Assembly (NCBI RefSeq): GCF_043290135.1 | Contig: NW_027464588.1 | Span: 7,291,501-7,355,500 of the forward strand | From: Rhipicephalus microplus | Lineage: Eukaryota; Arthropoda; Arachnida; Ixodida; Ixodidae | Direction of reading: 5' to 3' | Length of the DNA stretch: 64,000 nucleotides | Shown here: piece after piece, positions 6,540 to 44,320 of the stretch | Position numbering within the stretch: position 1 is the stretch's first letter | How the letters are laid out: each line of letters opens with the position of its first letter | Notes under the pieces: model-generated | What the model was told of the DNA's origin: nothing | Database searches by the model: none | Seen by the model: only the letters and a program-made list of their open reading frames with translations | Position numbers and translations under genes: made by a program

Positions 6540-8240
6540 AACTAAACGTGAACGTCCGGGCACTCAGTCCTTTAGCCTACTTTGTTTAACTTGGCTTTGA
6601 CTAAACTCCCTTCCTTATTAGAATAGATTCTCAATATCTCGCATGCCGTCTCTGCCGATGATATTACTATTTGGGCAACGAAAGTATAAGACGGAACCAT
6701 TTAGGACGCCCACCAGGAAGCTGCATATGTTATTTAGGACTATGCTTCGGCTTGCAGCCTTAAGTGGTCAGTGGAGAAGTCGTAGTTGTTAGTGGTACAC
6801 AAGCGGTGCCACAAGACGGCTGATTCTCCTTACAGTTCACTTTGATTTGATGGCCGTATGATCTTCCAGGTGCTTCAACTTCGTGTTATAGCCTCTACGT
6901 TCAGTATGATGGCAAAGCGTCGCATACTACACCTTATGGCTCAACAGATAACTCAAATTACACACATGATCCACCGCAACTGGAATCGCAGGAGAAGACT
7001 CTGTGAGAAGAATGTTCTCCGCTCAGTACAAGCACTCATTGTCGGCTCCCATATCAGCTTCCCTATCATAATCTAACACTAGCTCAAACCAAAGAAGTTG
7101 TACATCCCTTCACTGTCAGCTGTGAAGACGGCTCTCGGCTCGTCTCGACACATATCTACGCAACGCTTCCTTCAACTCAGTGTGCCAAACATCGTAACCG
7201 AACGGCTCGAAGCCCAGCACAATAGTCAGCTCTAACGGTTCAGGCAGACTCGTCAGGGCTGCGCCATAATGCCTCGTCCGAGCTACCCTATTTCCGCAAC
7301 ACCCACACAATTACCGCAACATAAACTTGCCGCTACTCTTCATACTCTCATGAAAGTGGCTTCGATTCCGCGCATCTAGAATCCCGTGCGCCACGCCAGT
7401 AGTCGACGTGGCCGAGGTCAAGCCTTGAGACGCGTTTTTTGTGATGGTACCGCAGATTTACAACTGCTCTGCATCTGCACTGATGCAGCACGCTACCCAA
7501 AGAATCCAGTCATGTGTTTAGCCATCTTAGATGACACAGACGCTATCGTAGTGTCTGCCACACTATGCACTACGAACAGTAGTTCAACAGAAGCAGGAGG
7601 TCTCAGTCTAGTCACTGTTCACGCTAAGATATTGTCACATGACTCTCCTGTTACTATAGTGACATAGGCTGCTTACCGCGACTTCAGTCAAGGACTTATG
7701 GCTGCACACACACACACACAGAGTCTTTCTCTCTCGCCATCGCCCCGTCGCGGTGGTCTAGTGGCTAAGGTCCTCGGCTGCTCACCCACAGGTCGCGGGA
7801 TCGAATCGCGGCTGCGGCGGCTGCATTTCCGATGGAGGCAGGAATGTTGTAGGCCCATGTGCTCGCATTTGGGTGCGCGTTAAATAACCCCAGATGGTCG
7901 AAATTTCCGGAGTCCTTCACTATGGTGTCTCTCATATTCATATGGTGGTTTTGGGACGTTGAACCTCACATATCAATCAATCAAATCTGTCTCGCCATCC
8001 GCATTACGCCCGATGCGTATCGTCTGGACTCCTGGGCACGCCTCTCTTCATGATAATGAACGCGTTCTTGTGGTTGCCCGAGGTTTCACCTGCCGGGCAC
8101 CACTGGAAGAGCTGTCCAACTCAGATAATGCTCAAACACAGCTACTAGACTAAAACAGGACGCTGGATTACTATGAACAGCGCCCTTATCCATATCCTCA
8201 ATACTCACTTAACACAGCAAAATACCGCACCCCTCATCGT
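6540..8240 (+). pseudogene. Decayed I-group LINE ORF2 (RT thumb plus RNase H), split by a SINE
   Basis: Scattered frames spell out a typical tick I-group polyprotein. The RT box appears as SADDITIW near 6650 and is followed by thumb-like sequence (LRSVQALIVGSHISFP, about 7015-7065). An RNase H start with TDAARYP and SSTEA lies near 7480-7600. Beyond the SINE at 7742-7985 come RNase H motifs WTPGHAS and NER (about 8020-8070) and a C-terminal segment to about 8240. Many stops and frameshifts make it non-functional. The first catalytic Asp and the Glu of RNase H remain; the third acidic motif is unclear. Confidence 0.75.
7742..7985 (+). mobile_element. Ruka-like tRNA-derived SINE, full length
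   Basis: It starts with a tRNA-like head containing box A (TGGTCTAGTGG, about 7755) and a box B-like GGATCGAATCG, then the conserved body, and ends CAATCAATCAAA. Flanks 7728-7741 and 7986-7999 match at 13 of 14 bases, giving a target-site duplication. It is inserted in the RNase H region of the older LINE remnant, so it is younger than that LINE. The body is more diverged than the copies at 26729 and 33287. Confidence 0.9.
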
Positions 8241-24456: not shown

Positions 24457-27376
24457 TTGTCAACGTTTAACGCTAGAACCTTATCTAGTGAGGGAAGTCT
24501 AGCTGTACTATTCGAGGAGCTAGAGGGTGTTCAATGCGATATCATAGGCCTCAGTGAGGTTAGGAGGACATATGAGGCATATACGGTGCTACAGAATGGG
24601 CACATTCTTTGCTATCGGGACTTGGCTGACAGAAGAGAACTGGGAGTGGGGTTCCTAAACCACAGGAATATAGCTGGCAACATAGAGTAATACTACAGCA
24701 TTAATGAAAGGGTGGTAGGTATTGTAATTAAACTGAATAAGAGATACAAGTTGAAAGTGGTATTGGCTTACGCACCCACATCCAGCTATGATGCCACTTC
24801 AGTTGAAAGCTTCTATGAAGACGTGGAATCGGCAATGAGTAAGGTAAAAACGCAGTATACTATACAGATGGGAGACTTTAATGAAAAGGTAGCGAAGAGG
24901 CAGGCTGGACACCAGGCACTAGGAGATTATGGTATCGGTTCTAGGAACGCCAGAGAAAAGCTTCTAGTATATTTCGAAGAACGCAATAATTTACGGATTT
25001 TGAATACCTTCTACCGAAAACAAGAAAACCGCAAGTGGACATAGAGAAGCCCTAATGGCGAAAAAAAGAACGAAATAGACTTTATAATGAGTGCACACCA
25101 AGGCATTGTGCAGGATGTGGAAGTCTTCGGCAAGGTACAACGCAGTGACCATAGAATAGTGCGGTCTCGAATCTACCTAGACTTGAAGAAGCAACTACAG
25201 AAACTGATACGCAAGAAGCCAATCAATGAGCTAGCACTGAGAGGGAAAGTACAGGAATTCGGAGTGTCACTGCAGAACAGGTACTCTGCTCTTAGCGAGG
25301 AAACCAACCTTAGCGTAGATACAATGAATGATAATCTGAGGAGTATCATTATGGAGTGTGCAGTGGAAGTTGCAGGCAGGGTAGTTAAACAGGATACTAG
25401 CAAGCTATCCCAGGAAACAAAGAATCTCATTAATAGGCGTACGCTATGCGATGCAAGAAAGTATAACATAGAGAGAATTGAGCAGGCTCTGAAAAACGGA
25501 GGAAGCGTCAAAGCAGTAAAGAGGAAACTTGGGATAGGCGAAAATCGAATGTATGCACTAGGGACAAAGAAGGCAAAAAAACTACCTATATGAATAGGAT
25601 CGTTAAAATGGCGGAGGAGTTTTACAGAGATCTGTACAGTAGCCGGGACAACCACGACCTGAACACTATAAGAACTTGCAGTGATCCAGACGACACCCCA
25701 CCAGTAATGATAGAAGAAGTCGGAAAAGCTTTGGAGAGCGTGCAAAGACGCAAAGCTGCTGGTGAGAATCAGGTAATATCAGATCTGCTGAAAGAGAGAG
25801 GACAGATTGTGTTAGAAAAACTAGCCACCCTGTTTACGAGGTGTCTCCTGACGGGAAGATACCGGAGTCTTGGAAGAATGCTAACATCATCTTAATACAT
25901 AAGAAAGGAGGTGACAAAGACTTGAAGAATTACAGGATGATCAGGTTGCTCTCTTTAGTATACAAGCTACTTACAAAAGCCATTGCTAACAGAGTAAAGA
26001 AAACAGTAGATGTCAATCAACCAAAGGAACGAGCAGGATTTCGAACGGGCTACTGAACAATCGATCACATTCAAAATATCAATCAGGTAATACAGAATTG
26101 CTCAGAATATAAACAACCACTATACATTGCCTTGATAGATTACGAGAAGGCGTTTGATTCAGTAGATATATCGGCCGTCATGTAAACACTGCGGAATCAG
26201 GGCGTCGATGAAGTATATATAAACACCCTGGAAGAAATCTACAGAGGATTAACTGCAACCATAGTGCTCCATAAACTTAGCAATAGAATACCAATCAAGA
26301 AGGGTGTAAGGCAGGGGGACGCCATCTCTCCAATGCTATTTACCGCATGCTTACAGGAGGTTTTCCGAAGTCTAGATTGGGAACAGTTAGGGACAAGAGT
26401 TATTGGAGAGTACCATAGTAATCTGCGCTTCGCTGATGACATTGCATTGCTGAGTAACTCAGGGGACGAATTGCATCTCATGATAATGAATTTAGAGAAG
26501 GAGAGCAGAAAGGTGGGTCTTAAAATTAATCTACAGAAAACGAAAGTAATGTACAACAACCTCGGGAGAGAGCAGCGCTTCGAGATAGGTAATACAGCAC
26601 ATCAAGTTACAAAAGACTATGTCTATTTAGGGCAGGTGATAACCATGGAGCCGAACCACGAGATAGAAGTGGAAGAATATGAATGGGGTGGAGCACATTT
26701 GGCAAGCACTCTCAAATTATGACACGTATTGATTGATATGTGGGGTTTAACGTCCCAAAACCACTATATGAATATGAGACACGCCGTAGTGGAGGGCTCC
26801 GGAAATTTAAACCACCTGGGGTTCTTTAACGTGCACCCAAATCTGAGCACACGGGCCTACAACATTTCCGCCTCCATCGAAATCGCAGCCGCCGCAGCCG
26901 GGATTCGAACCCGCGCCCTGCGGGTCAGCAGTCGAGTACCTTAGCCACTAGACCACCGCGGCGGGGCAATTATGACACGTAGTTTGCCACTATCCCTTAA
27001 GAGGAAGGTATATAACAGCTGTATCTTGCCGGTACTTAGATGCGGAGCCGAAACCTGGAGACCTGCAAAGAGGGTACAGCTTATATTGATGACGACGCAG
27101 CGAGCAATGGAAAGAAAAATGGTAGGTGTAACCTTAAGAGACAGAAAGAGAGCAGAGTGGATTAGGAATTAAACGGGGGTTAAGGATATCATAGTTGAAA
27201 TCAAGAAGAGAAAATGGACATGGGCCGGGCAGGTAGTGCGTAGACAGGATAACTGCTGGTCATTATGGGTAACTAAATGGATTCCAAGGGAAGGCAAGCG
27301 AGTTAAGGTGAGACAGAAGGTTAGGTGGGCAGATGAGATTAAGAAGTTTGCGGGTATGAAACGGCTGCAGCGAGCA
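24457..27376 (+). pseudogene. RTE-type ORF2: AP endonuclease plus RT remnant
   Basis: Endonuclease motifs are FNART, IGLSEVRR, YAPTSS, MGDFNEK (the usual Ala is Glu) and KVQRSDHR, with TAA at 24688 and TAG at 25042. The linker ends at 25593. RT pieces follow in shifting frames: KAAGENQVISDLL, ILIHKKGGDKDLKNYR, LIDYEKAFDSV, KGVRQGDAISPMLF, an intact LRFADDIALLS, and a thumb with LPVLRCGAETW beyond the SINE. At least four nonsense codons and several frameshifts are visible. Confidence 0.85.
26729..26967 (-). mobile_element. Ruka-like SINE, full length, inside the RTE LINE
   Basis: The minus strand reads from the tRNA-like head (box A at about 26948, box B GGATTCGAACC complement at about 26900) to a TCAATCAAT end. 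A perfect 14-bp duplication AATTATGACACGTA lies at 26715-26728 and 26968-26981. It is very similar to the copies at 2380 and 33287, so it is comparatively young. Confidence 0.95.
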
Positions 27377-32684: not shown

Positions 32685-33960
32685 CTAACCGTGATGAATT
32701 CTCGCTGTTTGTTTGAAAGGTTTTCGCCACATATTGAAGTCACCGTAGCAAAGCTGATAGAGGAATTTTAATCTAGATATGACCCGACGTTGCTCGAGTG
32801 TTTGGAGATTTGCCCTGTTACGTAAAGTGGTTACACTCGAGTGACGCGAATAAACAGAATAAATGAAGCGCAAAGCTAATTTTTGTACTCTTTCAATTTT
32901 ACGTATTAAGTATTGTTGGTAAGGGCTCCAAATGACATCTGCATACTCCAATGTAGGTCGTACTAGTGCCTTATAAGCGTTTAATTTCACAGCAGGAAGA
33001 GTACAGCGCAACTCTGTTTTCAAAAATACCCACTTTGTTAACCATGTCTCAATTGAGTGCAAAGCATTGTTTAACTTAATTTCGTCATCTCGGGTTTCAA
33101 TAGCTGTGTATACCACACAGTCGTCCGCAAATAATTTACTATGAATAGTGGTTCAACAGTAAGATAAATATCATTTATATACACTACAAAAAGTAGAGGG
33201 CCCAGTTCAGAGCCCTGCCTTGCGGGACTCCAGAGCACACATCCAACTCTTCAGAGATGCACTCGTTAGTGGCGACACACTGTGTTGCCCCGCCGTGGTG
33301 GTCTAGTGGCTAAGGTACTCGGCTACTGACCCGCAGGTCGCGGGTTCAAATCCCGGCTGCGGCGGCTGCATTTCCGATGGAGGCGGAAATGTTGTAGGCC
33401 CGTGTGCTCAGATTTGGGTGCACGTTAAAGAACCCCAGGTGGTCGAAATTTCCCGAGCCCTCCACTACGGCGTCTCTCATAACCATATGGTGGTTTTGGG
33501 ACGTTAAACCCCACATATTAATTAATTGACACACTGTGTTCTATTTCTTAAGTAACATACTACCCATACAACTACTTTTCGTTCAACGCCAATTGAGAGA
33601 AGTTTTGTAATCAGATCGGGATGGCGGACTACATCAAACGCCTTTGACAAATTTAGAAATATGGCGTCAGTTTGACCATTATTATTTATTGTACTAATTA
33701 AGTCATCAGTTATTTCAGATAGTTGGGTAACAGTTGACAAAGCAGATCTAAATACCTGCTGTTTGGAATAAAGCAAATTGCTATATTCGAGGTAAGCAAT
33801 GATGGCCATACAAATAACATGCTCGAAAAGTTTACAAGTACTCGTTAAGAAAACTGGTCTGTTGTTGCTAATTTCTAGAGAAGAGCCAGACTTATGGAGG
33901 GGAATAATTTTTGCCGAGCGCCAATCATCAGGAATGGTTGAAGTGCGTGGGAAATAACGT
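32685..33960 (-). pseudogene. CR1/L2-like LINE RT remnant, minus strand, split by a SINE
   Basis: Reading the minus strand: finger residues with IPDDWRSAKIIPLHKSG (about 33920), FLNLSKAFDVVRHPDL, then the SINE. Beyond it come CSGVPQ, an intact LFADDCVVY (about 33125) and a thumb with RPTLEYADVIWSPYQQY and IERVQKLALRF. The RT catalytic boxes survive but the frame is broken between the SINE and the FADD box, and the endonuclease is absent (5'-truncated). Confidence 0.8.
33287..33527 (+). mobile_element. Ruka-like SINE, full length
   Basis: It starts GCCCCGCCGTGGTGG and has perfect RNA polymerase III boxes: A (TGGTCTAGTGG, about 33298) and B (GGTTCAAATCC, about 33343). It ends ATTAATTAATT. A perfect 13-bp duplication GACACACTGTGTT lies at 33274-33286 and 33528-33540. 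It interrupts the minus-strand CR1/L2-like RT. With both boxes intact it is the copy most likely to be transcribable. Confidence 0.95.
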
Positions 33961-35418
33961 AACTTTGTTGCAGATATTTAGTTGAAACAAAAAATATTTA
34001 GTTGAAACAAAAGCGTTTGCAATCTCTAAGCCAATGACGGTAAATTGATCAATGGCCTTTGTTGCAGCTGTTGTTCCCGCTTCTTTCGGTATGCTTCTAC
34101 TAGCGCACTAAAGACGAGCAACGTTGTGCACGGCAACAGTGACGTAAGATTGTCCGGTCGGTTCGCTTCTTGAAGCGGGTAATTTGAAGTGTGCTAACCC
34201 GAGGTGGAGCACTAAAACGTGATGTTATTTCAAAATAGGCCCTTCCTTTCACGAAAGTAACACTGCGAGGTTTCTAGACCACCATTTCAACAATCAACGT
34301 CGACTTAATAGTTGCATTTAGTGTCCTTTTATGCTTAAGCTCTCCGAAAGAGTGGATGGTTATATACAATACACATGTCTAAATCGATTCGACTGACTAG
34401 CAGCTTCCTTTTCATTGGTGTGGAAAATTACTTGCGCACACCGTAGGAATAATTCCATATGTGAAGCTGCTTTCTCGATCCTGAAGCGACGCCTCACGTC
34501 AGCAAATGTTTCCTCATTTTGATTTTACAGCCCCTACTTACGATCCTAGCATCTCCACCACTTGTGAGACGACGTAAGGTATGACAAAACGATTGTTGTA
34601 AATACAGCACTGACGCGCGAACCAAACACCGAACATATCGCTAGAAAACACGATGGCGATTATTACAAATAATAGTATGCCCAAGGGAAGACGAACAATT
34701 GCACCGTAAACGCTTACGTTTGTTTCATTATTGTAGTCATAATAAACACACGAAAAACTTTATGCATTATATAGAGAACACTTTATATATGAAGTCAGAT
34801 ATACCCCTATTTTTGTACTGAGACTATATTAGAGGACCCCTGAACCACCTCTAAGAAAACAATAAACCAGCTTCGTATTATCTCACGTAGTTTATCTTTT
34901 TCGCGGCACAGTTCGCGACCTTGCAGTTTGATCACGTGACGTCAGGGCGAAATAAGCTCTCAATTGTTTAATATAGGTGACATATCTGCTGTGAATTGTT
35001 TCATACAAGGCTTTACGAAGCAGTGACATGGTCTTTTTTCTTTGTAATGTATGACTATCACGCGTGAAGAACTGATTTCACTTCGTGTTCTGCGTTTACG
35101 ACAGCACAAGCACAGGCAGTAGCGTGTGGCCGAGAGGCGCGAAATCATAACCGGCTAAACACTTAGTGCCAACTTTGCGCGTGTTTTACAAAAAATGAGT
35201 GGCGAAGAGAGGTAGCGCTTGTGGGTAGTGTAGTTAAGGCGAGAAAGACACTACTTTTTCGCCTTTGAACTTGCGGCGGTTAACAAGCCCTTCAATGATG
35301 CCCTCTAAATATAGTATAAAGTATTTAAAAATAAAGAAAATTCCTTGACAATGCAATGACAATTAGCACCGCCTAAAATATTACGTTATTTTATGATTTT
35401 TATAAAGTTGAAGTAAAA
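33961..35418. other. No recognisable gene
   Basis: AT-rich, no splice-bounded open frames that I trust. It directly precedes the CR1/L2-like LINE. Confidence 0.4.
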
Positions 35419-36105
35419 ATTGGAGCCGGCACGCTTGCCGACATGAAGCTCAAAACACTTCTGCTCTTGCAGGTTTTTGCGGTCTTTTGGACGGAAACTG
35501 CGCATCAGCCGTTCGGCGGGCATACGGTACACGTGTGTTCTGCCATCCCATCTGCGGATACATCACGCAAAGCGTCATCAGCTCGAGCATCTTCATCGCT
35601 GGACGAGGAGTGCTGTGATCCTTGTTGGGCCGCTTGCGTGAGCGATTACGACGGCGACAGTCGCTGCATGTGTGGAACATCATGTGACCCAGAACTGGCG
35701 TATATATTTGCGCGACACCTTGGCTGCGTGGGAATTGGAGCCGGCACGCTTGCCGACATGAAGCTCAAAACACTTCTGCTCTTGCAGGTTTTTGCGGTCT
35801 TTTGGACGGAAACTGCGCATCAGCCGTTCGGCGGGCATACGGTACACGTGTGTTCTGCCATCCCATCTGCGGATACATCACGCAAAGCGTCATCAGCTCG
35901 AGCATCTTCATCGCTGGACGAGGAGTGCTGTGATCCTTGTTGGGCCGCTTGCGTGAGCGATTACGACGGCGACAGTCGCTGCATGTGTGGAACATCATGT
36001 GACCCAGAACTGGCGTATATATTTGCGCGACACCTTGGCTGCGTGGGAATTGGAGCCGGCACGCTTGCCGACATGAAGCTCAAAACACTTCTGCTCTTGC
36101 AGGTT
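35419..36105 (+). repeat. LINE 5' monomers, 315 bp x 2.2
   Basis: Units 35419-35733 and 35734-36048 look identical base for base as far as I can read. A third unit runs 57 bp (36049-36105) until the sequence diverges after TTGCAGGTT. The period (315) is a multiple of three and the units keep one open frame joined to ORF1. Tandem 5' monomers act as promoters in mouse L1; whether they do so here is inference. Confidence 0.95.
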
Positions 36106-36987
36106 AGTGCTGTTCGTATGCTTGAAATTCCTAAAGCACTTTTAGCGTTGCCGGCTCCTCCCACAAAGGCATGTGTCGCGAGCACCACGGTGCGAGTGTG
36201 CACTGGAGTTAATGGGAAGCGTTTTCGCTTTATTGTGAACCGAGTGCTATATGTTGCTCTTCTTCTACTACTTTCTGGAGACATTGAGCTCAATCCTGGG
36301 CCTTTCGATAAAGGTGAAATGGATTATTTGAAGAAGTTGCAGGATACTATTATGAGTAAGTTAGAAAATATTGATACTAGGATAACTAACAGTGATACTA
36401 ACATAGCTGAAATAAAGAGCAAGCTAGAGATGACCGAGGGCCATATAGAAAGCGTCATGAAATTGGTACATGAGCAAGCCACTGTAATAAAGAATCTAAC
36501 TCATCAGATGCGAATTCTTCAAAAGAAAAATATCGACCTCGAAAACAGAAGCCGTAGAATGAACCTTGTGTTTTACGGGATAGACGATAATGACCAGCAT
36601 GAAACTTGGGAACAGTCTGAGGCCCTCGTTAAGGGCATCTGCACTGCCCAACTCGGATACGAACTGACATCAGTTCAAAGGGCACATCGCGTAGGTCGTT
36701 TTAATGAACGGAAAAAAAGGCCAATTATTGTGAACTTTTCATCTGATAAGGAAAAAGAGGTCGTCCTTAAAAAAGCCAAGAATTTGAAAGGTACACAGTA
36801 CAGCATTGAGCAGGATTATTCATTCGAAACGCGCACTGTACGAAAGAAGCTTTGGGAATATGGTAAAGCGAAAAGGGCGGATAAGAAAAACCTGGTTAAG
36901 CTAAAAGCCGATAAACTGATTATAAACGGCAGAGCATTTACTTGGGATGATGAAAAGGAAGAAGTCGTTGCCTTGTCTAAACGATGA
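35443..36987 (+). CDS. LINE ORF1: signal-peptide/Cys-rich repeats, 2A motif, coiled coil, RRM-like RNA-binding protein
   Basis: 514 codons. Residues 1-105 and 106-210 are the same unit: a signal-peptide-like start (MKLKTLLLLQVFAVF), a polar stretch and a cysteine-rich end (EECCDPCWAACVSDYDGD, RCMCGTSC). A third start (MKLKTLLLLQVSAV, residue 211) opens a shorter hydrophobic leader. A second hydrophobic run then precedes the 2A motif GDIELNPGP at residues 279-287. After it come a coiled coil (about 290-370) and an RRM-like domain plus C-terminal domain as in L1-type ORF1 proteins (NLVFYGIDDND, VQRAHRVGRF, RPIIVNFSS). Met codons at 35443, 35758 and 36073 are all possible starts, giving nested leaders. 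Known role of such proteins: binding LINE RNA and chaperoning it. The leader is unusual. Confidence 0.85.
   Translation: MKLKTLLLLQVFAVFWTETAHQPFGGHTVHVCSAIPSADTSRKASSARASSSLDEECCDPCWAACVSDYDGDSRCMCGTSCDPELAYIFARHLGCVGIGAGTLADMKLKTLLLLQVFAVFWTETAHQPFGGHTVHVCSAIPSADTSRKASSARASSSLDEECCDPCWAACVSDYDGDSRCMCGTSCDPELAYIFARHLGCVGIGAGTLADMKLKTLLLLQVSAVRMLEIPKALLALPAPPTKACVASTTVRVCTGVNGKRFRFIVNRVLYVALLLLLSGDIELNPGPFDKGEMDYLKKLQDTIMSKLENIDTRITNSDTNIAEIKSKLEMTEGHIESVMKLVHEQATVIKNLTHQMRILQKKNIDLENRSRRMNLVFYGIDDNDQHETWEQSEALVKGICTAQLGYELTSVQRAHRVGRFNERKKRPIIVNFSSDKEKEVVLKKAKNLKGTQYSIEQDYSFETRTVRKKLWEYGKAKRADKKNLVKLKADKLIINGRAFTWDDEKEEVVALSKR
36277..36303 (+). other. 2A ribosome-skipping motif (GDIELNPGP)
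   Basis: It matches the 2A consensus D-(V/I)-E-x-N-P-G-P exactly and follows a leucine-rich helix-prone stretch, as in functional 2A sequences. The ribosome would fail to form the Gly-Pro bond, releasing the leader and continuing with the RNA-binding part. 2A motifs are known at the N-termini of some non-LTR retrotransposon proteins. Confidence 0.85.
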
Positions 36988-39781
36988 CAGGAAAATTGTA
37001 CCATCTGCGTTCATCGTGATTTAATTATTGCAGTAGTGAATTGCCGAAGTGTAATAAACAAAATAGACGAATTCGCTGGCTTGCTTGATACCGTGGGGGC
37101 CGATGTCGTGTTCGGTACAGAATCTTGGCTCAACCCATCCATCTCTGATCATGAAGTGTTTCCTAACAATTATACTGCCTACCGTAAAGATAGGCCGAGT
37201 CATGGGGGTGGTGTTTTCTTGTTAGTTCACTCGTCCCTTTCATCCACTAATCTTGATATCGGTAATGACGCTGTCGAATCTTTCTGGAGTACTGTTACAG
37301 TCAGTAACAATTTTTCTTTTGTAGCTGGGACGTTTTATCGACCGCCCGCCGCGAACTCCAGTATTTTGCAATTATTAGGTGACATCGTTTCACAGGCGTC
37401 TGACCGTACGATATTATTAGCAGGTGATTTTAATTTACCCGATCTAAAATGGCGAAGTCACTCATGCGAGGTGCTGCATGCCAGCCGTAATAACCTAGAA
37501 ATGAAGAACATTGTTGACACTTTTGGGTTGATACAGTACGTTTTAGAACCCACAAGACTTAAGCATACCCTTGATCTTCTCTTTTGTAACTCCCCTAATT
37601 TAGTAAGTAACGTTGATATCATTCCAGGCATTAGTGACCATCAGGTTGTAGTAGCAGGTGTTACAACAAAAATTCAAAAAATCACGAAGAGTATCAGAAG
37701 AAAGTTGTTCTTTTTTGATAAAGGCGACTATCCGTCAATTTCCGCAAGGCTTCTTGATTATTTGCCTGTATTTGAATGCTTGGTAGAGGAACACAGTGTA
37801 GAGTATTTGTGGAACACATTTAAAAATAAGATACTCGAACTCTCAGAGCAGTACATACCAAGTATGGATTCGGCTAAGCTTAAGAAACGTAAAAAACCGT
37901 GGGTGACTTACAGTATCCTGAAACTAATTAAGAAACGAAGACGGGTATTCAAAAAATACAAAAAAATGAAAGGTAAAGTTCATTATAAGAAGCTACAGGA
38001 GCTAACACGTGAATATAAAGAAGAATCAGTAAATGCAAAGCAGCATTTTTTTAAACGATTGAATGAAAATATGAGTACAAATCCTAAACCTTTCTGGCAA
38101 TATCTAAAGGGATGTGGGTCTGATCCGGTTGGAATAAATGAACTTATTTTCGATGGACGCACTCTTTCCAATGATACGGATAAAGCCACGTGCCTAAATA
38201 ACTACTTCCAATCCATTTTTCTTCCTAAATCTGCATTGAGCTCACCCTTGCCAAGTAGCAGTGTTCCTCTCATGGAACCTCTTGAAATTAGTGTCAGCGG
38301 TATTGAGGCCTTGCTCAGGAATCTCGACGACAGTAAAGCTATCGGCCCTGACGGTGTCTCTCCAAGAGTTTTAAAACAGTGCGTTAACCCCATTTCGCTC
38401 TACCTTTACCTGATCTTTGAAAAATCACTAAGTACTGGCCAGTTGCCACAAGACTGGAAAGTGGCAAATGTAGTCCCGATCCACAAAGGAGGTCCTAAAA
38501 AAGACGTCACGAATTATAGACCTATTTCGCTTACCTCGATATCATGTAAAATCATTGAACATGTAATATATAAGGCTCTAATGAAGCATTTATTAGATTA
38601 CGATTTGTTAACAAAGACTCAACACGGTTTTCGTAAGGGCTTTTCCTGTACGACCCAGCTTCTCGAGTTCTACAACGATCTAGTATCTGAAATTGATCTA
38701 GGTGGGCAAACAGACTGCATCTTTTTAGACTTCAGTAAAGCTTTCGACACTGTTTCGCATCCTCTGCTCCTCGAAAAATTACGAATATTTAATATAGATG
38801 AAAGAATTTTTAATTGGATAGAGAATTACCTGTCACAACGCCGCCAATGTGTTGTCCTGAATGGTACTAAGTCGGAATTTCTAGAGGTCACGTCGGGCGT
38901 CCCCCAGGGATCTGTATTGGGGCCTCTGCTATTCATAATTTTTATAAATGACATTAACAAAGATATAAGCTCAAGTATACGGCTCTTTGCTGATGATTGC
39001 GTAGTCTACAGAAAAATTCAGAAAGAACATGATGTCCTTGAATTGCAGGCTGATCTTGCACGTATTCATCAATGGTGCCTTAAGTGGCAAATGAAGTTAA
39101 ACACAAATAAGTGCGTTCATGTGTGTTTTACAAAGAAGAAAAAAATATTTGATGCAAATTTTTGTCTAGGAGGAAATAAATTAGATAAAAAATACTCGTA
39201 CAAATATTTGGGTGTATTGCTGTCGCATGATTGTTCCTGGAATGCACATGTGGATTATGTGGTTTCCAAAGCCGCGATAGCGTTGAATTATATTCAAAGG
39301 AATTTGAGATGTGCAGATCCTAACCTTAGAAGCACGGCCTACCTCACTTGTATTCGTCCAATCTTGGAGTATGCCTGTACTCTTTGGGACCCAACACAAA
39401 CAGGTTTGATAAATAAATTAGAAAAAAATACAAAACAGAGCAGCCAGGTTTGTTTTGGGTCGGTACGGACAAAAGCAGAGTTGTACCGAAATGAAAAAGG
39501 AGTTAAACTGGGAGTTACTGTCGTCCCGTCGCAAAAAATTGCGTTTGAAGCTTTTATACCAGATATTTCATAAAAAAACGGGACTAGACAGCGACACTTA
39601 CTTAAAAAGACCAGATTACATATCTCAACGTACAGACCACATACACAAAATAAAGCCGTGCCGGGCCAGGACGAACCTGTATTCAAACTCGTTTTTTGTT
39701 AAAACTATTAACGAATGGAATTGTTTGACATCTGAGCAAGTGTGCAGTGTTAATGAAGATGTATTTTTTTCAACTTTGTAA
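36988..39781 (+). CDS. LINE ORF2: AP endonuclease plus reverse transcriptase (one frameshift)
   Basis: The frame is the same as ORF1 and opens directly after the UGA at 36985. No ATG lies before the endonuclease core; a GTG is at 37036. Endonuclease: VVNCRSVINKID, FGTESWL, GTFYRPP, AGDFNLPDLKW and GISDHQVV carry the expected Asn, Glu, Asp and His residues. RT: DDSKAIGPDGV, IHKGG, FSKAFDTV, SGVPQGSVLG and LFADDCVVY are intact. At 39421-39428 one extra base in an A run shifts the frame. The C-terminal part continues in the next frame to TAA 39779, and the original frame ends at 39573. Apart from this, all catalytic residues I can identify are present. Confidence 0.88.
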
Positions 39782-39859
39782 CCCCCCTGCTGTAACGCCT
39801 CTGGCAAAGCGGGGATATGTATGAATAAAGAATAAAGAAAGAAAAAAATAAAGTTGTAC

Positions 39860-42069: not shown

Positions 42070-44320
42070 TAAAGGACAGGTCTTTGTCTTATTTGAGGTG
42101 TCAGGCTAAACTTAAATATTTTTCAACAGACCTGGGCTCCCTCCTAAAAACAAACCCAAAAAAATTCTGGCGTGAAATATCCCGCAATCGGAATGCTAAT
42201 CACATTACCTTACATGATGAGAATCACGAACCTCTTTCTAACAGCCAGTGTTGTTCTGCTTTTAACTCTTTTTTTGCCTCAATGTTTACTCGGGAAGATC
42301 AATCCAAATTACCTAACGTGCCCGATTATGATTACCAGTACATGAAACCTATCGAAATTACAGCTAAAGGTATAGAATGTCAGATAACTAAGCTGAAGCT
42401 GTCTAGCTCCACTGGGGCTGATAATATAAACTCAAAAGTACTAAAAAACACAATTTCCATTACCAGTAACATTCTGTGCAATATTTTTCAACAATCTTTA
42501 GAGTCCGGGCAGATACCTGACGACTGGAAAGTTGCAAAAGTTACCCCATTGTTCAAGTCTGGAGACCAACACCTTCCCCAAAATTACCGTCCAATCTCAC
42601 TTACATCAATTTGCTGCAAGCTATTAGAACACATTATCGCTTCGCACATTTAGGACCATCTTGAGTCTAACCAGTTCTTTTTCCGCAATCAACATGGGTT
42701 TAGGAAAGGTTGGTCATGCGAGACACAACTGCTAGAATTCACGAATGACCTTCACTCGAACATGAATAATAACCTCCAAATAGACTGCATTTTTCTTGAC
42801 TTTTCGAAAGCGTTTGACCGTGTGCCCCACTGCCGCCTAATCTCAAAGCTATCTGCTCTTCAATTAGACTCGCTAACCTTATCATGGGTTCGAAATTTTC
42901 TTTCTCTCCGGAAACAGTTCACTGTCATCAATAACGATTCGTCGTCAATATGCGATGTAACTTCCGGGGTGCCACAGGGCAGCGTGCTCGCCCCGCTGCT
43001 ATTTTTTATATTTATAAACGACTTGCCTGATGGCGGTACATCATTCATACGAATATTTGCCGATGACTGCATAATCTACCACCCTATCAAAAATGTTAAC
43101 GATCATTATGCACTACAGAAAAACCTTGATGTAATTATGAAATGGTGTGAGACGTGGCAAATGGTTCTAAACGCATCAAAATGCAAAACCATCTCATTTA
43201 GCCGTAAGCACGACCCCTCCATTTTTTCATACCGTATAAATAATGACCCCCTCTCGCATGTTTCCACATACAAGTATTTGGGCCTACACTTCACACAAAA
43301 TCTTTCATGGTCCTCTCACATCACTAACATTTGCGCAAATGCCTCGAGATCACTGGGATACCTACGCCGTAACTTACATTCCTCCCCCGCTAACGTCCGA
43401 AAACTAGCTTACAAAACTTTTGTTCGACCTCAACTTGAATTTGCCTCACCAATCTGGTCCCCCCACCAAAATTACTTAACCAACATGATCAAGGCAGTTC
43501 AAAATAGGGCAGTCCGATTCATTTCTCGTAATTATAATTTCTGCTGCAGCGTAACACAACTTAAAATGGATTATTCACTTCAATTATTATCCACTCGCCG
43601 CAACATTTCTCTTTTATGCCTCTTTCATAAATACGTCAATAGCACTAAAATGACCAGACTTCCAATTGAACGACCCTCCTATTTATCAACTAGACTACAC
43701 AACCGGCTTAGTTTCTCGCGCATGTACGGCAAAACGAACTCTTTTAACGCATCCGCTTTGCCTCGTGCCATCACGTTGTGGAATGATCTTCCCGATAACT
43801 TGGTATCTGACACTAACCCTGTTTCCTTCCGCAACAAATTGGTCTTACATTTTGGTTGAGAATTTCATGTTCACAGTTTCGTTCTTGTATGTACATGACA
43901 TTCATAATGCTGTGCAAAAAGTTTTTTTCTAATCCGCTTATTGTCCCCTTATTTTTTGTGCTTTATTTTTGTTTGCTTAGGACGAACTGTTTACACTTCC
44001 TATAAGTGCTTTCATGATTTTCCCAGTTTATTATACCACAATCTGTGCCATTTTACTTACACGTATTGTACACTTCCTAACTGCTGCGTGCCATGAACTG
44101 CATCTTTCTAGTTTTTTGGTAACGATGTATGTTGTCAATTTATACTTACTTATTTCTTGTTTATTTGTTACTCATGTCTTGAGCTTACGTTTTGGCACCT
44201 TTCGCCCTTTTACTTGTTGTACATGTCTTTGTTAGCCCCCCTTACTCAATGCCCTAACCAAGGGCCTGTAAGGTACCTGTAAATAAATAAAAAAAATAAA
44301 ATAAATAAAAATAAAATGTG
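42070..44320 (+). mobile_element. 5'-truncated CR1-like LINE
   Basis: It begins inside ORF2 between endonuclease and RT and runs through RT to a T-rich 3' UTR. That UTR contains CCTAACCAAGGGCCTGTAAG and a tail of irregular AAATA/AATAAA repeats (44280-44316). It is related to, but clearly distinct from, the element at 35419. Confidence 0.88.
42084..43859 (+). pseudogene. CR1-like RT with one nonsense codon
   Basis: A single frame from 42084 to TGA 43857 is interrupted only by TAG at 42651. Motifs: STGADNINSKVL, IPDDWKVAKVTPLFKSGD, RPISLTSICCKLLEH, HGFRKGWSCETQLLEF, LDFSKAFDRVPH, SGVPQGSVLAPLLFF, an intact IFADDCIIY, and a thumb ending in LPRAITLWNDLP near residue 570. The catalytic Asp residues are all present. 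Truncation of the endonuclease and the TAG make it inactive. The long C-terminal domain after RT is typical of tick CR1-like ORF2. Confidence 0.88.

Follow-up and report, generated by a model that had tools for sequence, protein, structure and literature searches.

A tick LINE, tentatively of CR1 type, with probable promoter repeats inside its ORF1 coding sequence, a signal-peptide-like leader and a predicted 2A split

Background

Within a 64,000-nucleotide stretch of Rhipicephalus microplus DNA (termed here the window) lies a copy of a LINE, tentatively of CR1 type, that probably carries its promoter repeats inside the coding sequence of ORF1, keeping them in the ORF1 reading frame as a signal-peptide-like leader that a 2A motif would split from the RNA-binding protein. 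The overall architecture, the retention of the frame, the spacing of a TATA box, the 5' ends of insertions and the hydrophobic start of the leader are all read directly in the DNA, both in the window and in related elements from the same genome and from other hard ticks. Tandem promoter monomers are known from mouse L1, where they lie in the 5' UTR and are separated from ORF1 by a tether (PMC9022269).

Results

Layout of the element

The LINE copy occupies 35418..39840 of the forward strand (as do all of its features given below), its 5' end being the start of the first monomer and its 3' end, which is approximate, the point where copies cease matching; a 9-bp sequence on either side, ATAAAGTTG, is a possible target duplication. 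The single tandem array found (35418-36105; period 315, 2.2 copies, 100% matches) consists of monomer 1 (35418..35732), a monomer 2 of identical sequence (35733..36047) and a third, partial repeat. Each monomer can be divided into an A part, which runs from the monomer start up to a CAG (at 35472 in monomer 1), and a B part, which is the remainder; with C denoting the body, the order of blocks is A-B-A-B-A-C, where the last A part (36048..36102) has its own ATG at 36073. The AUG is located in A, from which the reading frame enters either B, which completes the hydrophobic start, or C. In monomer 1 this ATG and the signal-peptide-like start that follows it, MKLKTLLLLQVFAVFWTETA, lie at 35443..35502 (as judged by hydropathy rather than by a trained predictor), with a second occurrence in monomer 2 at 35758-35817. 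ORF1 (35443-36987, 514 aa) is open through both monomers, the third leader and the 2A motif and, given also the perfectly matching array, an earlier note on this DNA was right to describe 315-bp tandem monomers in frame with ORF1.

The body leader, C (36103..36276), begins with the splice-donor-like GTTAGT and has a hydrophobic segment (~36226-36276) directly before the 2A motif GDIELNPGP (36277..36303), for which the predicted skip falls between G and P (36300/36301). The motif fits the form D[V/I]ExNPGP with its upstream context and is conserved in relatives. It is followed by the ORF1p core (36301..36984), for which structure prediction and structure search indicate a coiled coil and an L1-ORF1p-like RNA-binding fold; the order that the earlier note gave--third leader, exact 2A and then the RNA-binding part--is thereby confirmed. 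Confidence in the model of the post-2A part is good, and the solved structures that match it best are of human L1 ORF1p (PDB 2yko and others; best Foldseek E 3e-8, ~18% identity over the aligned part); as modelled, a coiled coil followed by an RRM and a C-terminal domain is the arrangement of an L1-type ORF1 protein. A Pfam search on ORF1 returned only matches below the curated cut-offs.

ORF2 (37030..39573) contains a reverse transcriptase (RVT_1) domain. Among its 120 listed database matches, all 5 that carry a source name are bird proteins, from which, rather than from a tree, the LINE is read as belonging to the CR1 clade. This clade is marked by short AT-rich 3' repeats in place of a plain poly(A) tail; the 3' ends here are GAATAAAGAATAAAG-like in many copies and A-rich in others. 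The window's ORF2 is out of frame relative to most other copies, 33 of 37 aligned copies differing from it by a net indel; copies that have no such difference from one another exist.

Elsewhere in the window, a dispersed repeat of ~210-240 bp occurs in four copies, in both orientations and 88-96% alike (2384-2596, 7742-7981, 26728-26940 and 33287-33526), and is perhaps a short mobile element. An open frame at 42282-42653, with the motif NYRPISLTS, resembles a fragment of a different reverse transcriptase.

Copies of the window family

From the 3.26-Gb genome to which the window belongs, 40 copies of the window family were fetched. Three complete monomers occur in 5 of these, two in 26, one in 8 and none in 1--a distribution biased by the query, which itself held two monomers. 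The number thus varies between copies, as it does in promoter-monomer LINEs. Among the 39 copies that have the exact 2A stretch, ORF1 is 409, 514 or 619 aa long in 31 (counted from the first in-frame monomer ATG; in some of these an outer monomer is broken and ORF1 is read from an inner one) and is altered or broken in 8; the in-frame arrangement is therefore no accident of a single copy. A net frameshift is present in 3 of 75 units.

Three loci (L018 and L043/L044) represent one insertion within duplicated DNA, the copies being 99.7% alike over 4.4 kb and one unit apart, which implies that the number of units changes after insertion. (Two further sets of duplicates, L026/L027 and L035/L037, each count as one event. 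The flanks of L018, L043 and L044 match themselves at ~190-bp steps, in the manner of a satellite array.) The three ORF1 lengths, together with a duplicated insertion that differs by exactly one unit, bear out the earlier suggestion that 105-residue modules are gained and lost in frame. Nor, despite some decayed units, are the monomers of other copies generally out of frame or filled with stops.

A second lineage and other hard ticks

A search of this genome with an Amblyomma protein (P0016) uncovered a further lineage, here called the second, from which 22 loci were fetched, families close to P0011, P0012, P0014 and P0018 being absent from this set. A 2A match is present in 20 of the 22, and in all 20 the tandem period (309, 312, 315, 318 or 321 bp) is a multiple of three. 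Open frames are favoured by the way in which these loci were found, through a search with a protein, as they are among the database proteins described below, which are necessarily open. Besides the window family, six families have the same plan and differ in period length: F1 (L049-L053, L063, L064, L066, L069), F2 (L059, L060), F3 (L054), F4 (L055, L068), F5 (L056, L058, L062, L070) and F6 (L057, L061). Of the 37 units tested, two of them from the window, 33 have no stop and 4 have one. The unit of L060 is 312 bp long, versus 315 bp in its relative L059, a change that preserves the frame; decay is seen in the first unit of L070, which is spaced 320 bp.

Among the 16 strongest matches to ORF1, all 10 named relatives are hard-tick proteins. 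A signal-like module followed by the last leader, the 2A and ORF1p is likewise seen in database proteins from Dermacentor, Haemaphysalis, Hyalomma, Amblyomma and Ixodes, apart from incomplete entries (P0006 and P0159 have no 2A; P0170 has neither 2A nor core). The families are related to one another, so that protein tests on them are not independent. One Ixodes scapularis entry (P0160) has a zinc-knuckle and a protease-like stretch ahead of a 2A and a similar ORF1 core; this gene model might reflect an insertion nested within another gene or an error of annotation.

The monomer as a promoter repeat

In the window a TATATAT box lies 29 nt before the motif GGGAATTGG at each monomer boundary: the boxes are at 35701..35707 (monomer 1) and 36016..36022 (monomer 2), and the corresponding motifs, which are putative RNA starts, are at 35730..35738 (the boundary of monomers 1 and 2) and 36045..36053 (where monomer 2 meets the last A part). 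In the second lineage TATAA precedes the boundary motif GTGGGC by exactly 32 nt at all 40 internal junctions from 19 loci, and was found at none of 17 outer array starts within the preceding 45 nt. The codons expected over the TATA box, at the same distance from the boundary, are matched by pattern in 6 of 12 other tick proteins and go unmatched in the other 6.

The 5' ends of insertions are informative in the same regard. In the window family (whose 5'-end counts include three groups of duplicated insertions) 29 of 40 copies begin exactly at the start of A; the remaining 11 start a few bases inside, carry mutations at this point or are truncated further along. The run of G at those 29 starts is four long in 15, three in 7 and zero to two in 7, versus three at internal junctions. 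Similarly, an extra G stands at the array start in 12 of the 16 second-lineage loci with a visible start, at a position that holds T or C at internal junctions. An extra 5' G is the expected trace of cap copying. That insertions begin at boundaries implies that the inserted RNAs did so too, carrying whole monomers and their AUGs, the AUG being 28 nt after the putative RNA start in the window and 50-53 nt after it in four second-lineage loci. Judged by these ends, RNA starts lie upstream of the third leader, in keeping with the earlier note's reading, against which the opposite outcome would have told.

The fixed distance between TATA box and putative RNA start, which the earlier note had missed, makes it very likely that the monomers are promoter repeats. 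A single stretch of DNA thus seems to serve as both promoter and coding exon.

The leader protein

The feature that, on sequence evidence, is common to the families is a hydrophobic, signal-peptide-like start, which the earlier note had described in the window and which is also found on the monomers of other tick families. Upon shuffling codons, the start is significantly hydrophobic (p < 0.05) in 3 of the 7 own-genome families, the others giving p of 0.051 to 0.16; T is raised at codon position 2 of the signal region in all 7. (In F4 another frame scores above the true frame in hydrophobicity.) Upon shuffling residues, p < 0.05 is obtained for 10 of 12 tick database proteins. The monomer contributes to this property: in the six second-lineage families the mean hydropathy of the best 12 residues is 1.52 to 2.50 when A continues into B, versus -0.16 to 0.54 when it continues into C, and in all 11 tick database proteins readable both ways the version without the monomer is the less hydrophobic. 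In the window family, A is hydrophobic even by itself (1.86, versus 2.16 with the monomer), so that loss of the monomer weakens the start only slightly.

The window and the six families have a second hydrophobic segment, which directly precedes the 2A, and an upstream signal can inhibit 2A in artificial polyproteins (PMC2978324). The leader might be translated in order to act locally, its hydrophobic segments tuning the 2A or anchoring the ribosome at the ER with nothing being secreted; this is improbable, in that the ~90 or more residues between the monomer signal and the 2A suggest separate roles for the two.

Protein-level constraint was assessed by comparing F1 with F2, for which pN/pS is 0.64 in frame (p 0.029), the two alternative frames giving 0.87 and 1.20. 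Single pairs give ratios of 0.43 to 0.63, and L059 versus L060 a dN/dS of 1.22. Taken alone, each sub-part of the monomer, the middle included, lacks significant constraint in the F1-F2 comparison. Among window-family monomers, shared changes comprise 6 nonsynonymous, 1 synonymous and 1 stop, and singletons 6, 9 and 1, respectively; selection within this family was rejected as a finding, the changes being too few and of mixed sign. The last third of the monomer holds the putative promoter sequence, which may explain the protein likeness there, part of which falls over the TATA box. From these patterns we conclude that frame and hydrophobic start have been maintained and that the remainder of the module is almost unconstrained.

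This weak constraint, the strength of the promoter-like anatomy and the overlap of protein likeness with the TATA box are what might be expected of mouse-L1-style promoter monomers that are open by chance, with ORF1 translated from the last AUG or by a bypass and the likeness to a signal being incidental. Such a coincidence is nevertheless decidedly improbable: periods change in steps of three across the six families and the window family, the AUG of each monomer lies close to the putative RNA start, the hydrophobic start recurs in distant tick families, and pN/pS is lowest in the true frame.

The earlier note had also emphasized a Cys-rich block and the export of a small Cys-rich peptide. The block is real in the window copy, where, as in the window family generally, it follows the signal-like start; its Cys pattern, however, differs between families and is not shared with the others, so it was rejected as a conserved core. 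Accordingly, it is very unlikely that each monomer yields a secreted Cys-rich peptide with a conserved function of its own, and an exported peptide is not supported as the conserved point of the system, given this unshared pattern, a monomer middle with no significant constraint and an AlphaFold model of the leader in which residues 1-267 have pLDDT < 50.

Lastly, the CAG that ends A is the point at which both A|B and A|C diverge (the match extending by a further GTT in the window and F1), and a donor-like CAG|GT[TC][AG]GT spans A|C (36103-36108 in the window), though not A|B, in the window and all six families; three database gene models (P0006, P0159 and P0170) leave exactly at this CAG. It is highly improbable that A is for this reason a first exon whose donor-like site either is spliced downstream, giving an alternative product, or once made the A-B junction, inasmuch as the site has a pyrimidine at +3 (which is unusual for a splice donor), the gene models are perhaps ab initio predictions, the families are related by descent, and the obvious acceptor-like site before the window's ORF2, as judged by eye, would bring in an in-frame stop--for which reason splicing of the last A part into ORF2 was rejected.

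Discussion

Proposed explanation

The reading preferred here, that of promoter repeats kept in frame within ORF1, probably operates as follows. A TATA promoter near the end of each monomer would direct a capped transcript from the next monomer boundary; each monomer would supply an AUG shortly after this RNA start; and each, being uninterrupted in the ORF1 frame, forms a module headed by a signal-peptide-like stretch. Whichever monomer starts the transcript, its AUG would then enter a single open frame, so that promoter repeats could be gained or lost without the loss of ORF1. With AUGs so close to the cap, any repeat outside the frame would prevent translation of ORF1, and the array must therefore stay open. 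From the sequence we infer that the promoters are active and that the monomers are translated. Skipping at the 2A would split the leader, whatever its length, from the RNA-binding protein, and the leader would most likely enter the ER, to be discarded or released, with whatever role a released peptide might have. A copy with n monomers would tend to yield RNAs with fewer, the repeats presumably being regained by recombination or during reverse transcription.

A transcript from the last repeat would encode a leader that lacks the monomer's part of the signal, so that the choice of start site could alter how ORF1p is made. Leader choice of this kind is possible; that it amounts to a switch--between an ER-directed, signal-bearing polyprotein, from which every repeat would release one module, and a product lacking the monomer signal, the RNA-binding protein being freed by the 2A in either case--is a tentative and rather unlikely extension.

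Relation to known systems

As modelled, the element resembles human L1 in that the part after the 2A combines a coiled coil with the RNA-binding fold of human L1 ORF1p; human L1 ORF1p is not known to have such a leader. As in mouse L1, the 5' end is built of tandem units that serve (here, are predicted to serve) as promoters and that vary in number between copies; unlike the mouse monomers, which lie in the 5' UTR (PMC9022269), those described here are open, are in the ORF1 frame and bear an AUG and a signal-like start.

2A motifs, too, are known in non-LTR retrotransposons, and one 2A-like signal sequence can give a protein two destinations, as in the sea urchin NLR proteins, where it directs both secretion and cytosolic release (PMC4981915). 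The tick element shares with these retrotransposons a D[V/I]ExNPGP motif placed ahead of a LINE-encoded protein and an N-terminal hydrophobic stretch linked with the 2A. As portrayed there, however, the 2A-like signal sequence is one short stretch that is itself the 2A, whereas the tick element has ~105-residue modules in tandem ahead of a separate 2A leader, and these modules appear to double as promoters. A retroelement has also been proposed to give rise to a peptide that leaves the cell, namely ROPIP1 of Blumeria (PMC6022598); unlike the tick LINE, this is a non-autonomous fungal element with a single peptide, and neither a promoter repeat nor a 2A is mentioned in the pertinent passages of that account.

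The literature searched (mostly at the level of titles and abstracts, and not including the main 2A-LINE paper, Odon 2013) yielded no promoter monomers that are in frame, coding and signal-bearing; promoter monomers and 2A-bearing LINEs are each already known.

Conclusions

In the work consulted here (mouse L1, PMC9022269), the promoter repeats of LINEs are non-coding; in the tick element a single piece of DNA appears to supply promoter, start codon and protein leader. An internal promoter could in this way be multiplied while ORF1 stays intact, the frame having been kept in several tick lineages. If the choice of start site does act as a switch, then promoter copy number would set both the dose and the location of the leader. 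Moreover, because the 2A is linked to a signal-like leader that is gained or lost one copy at a time, these elements offer a natural test of whether the output of a 2A is set by the targeting of its leader.
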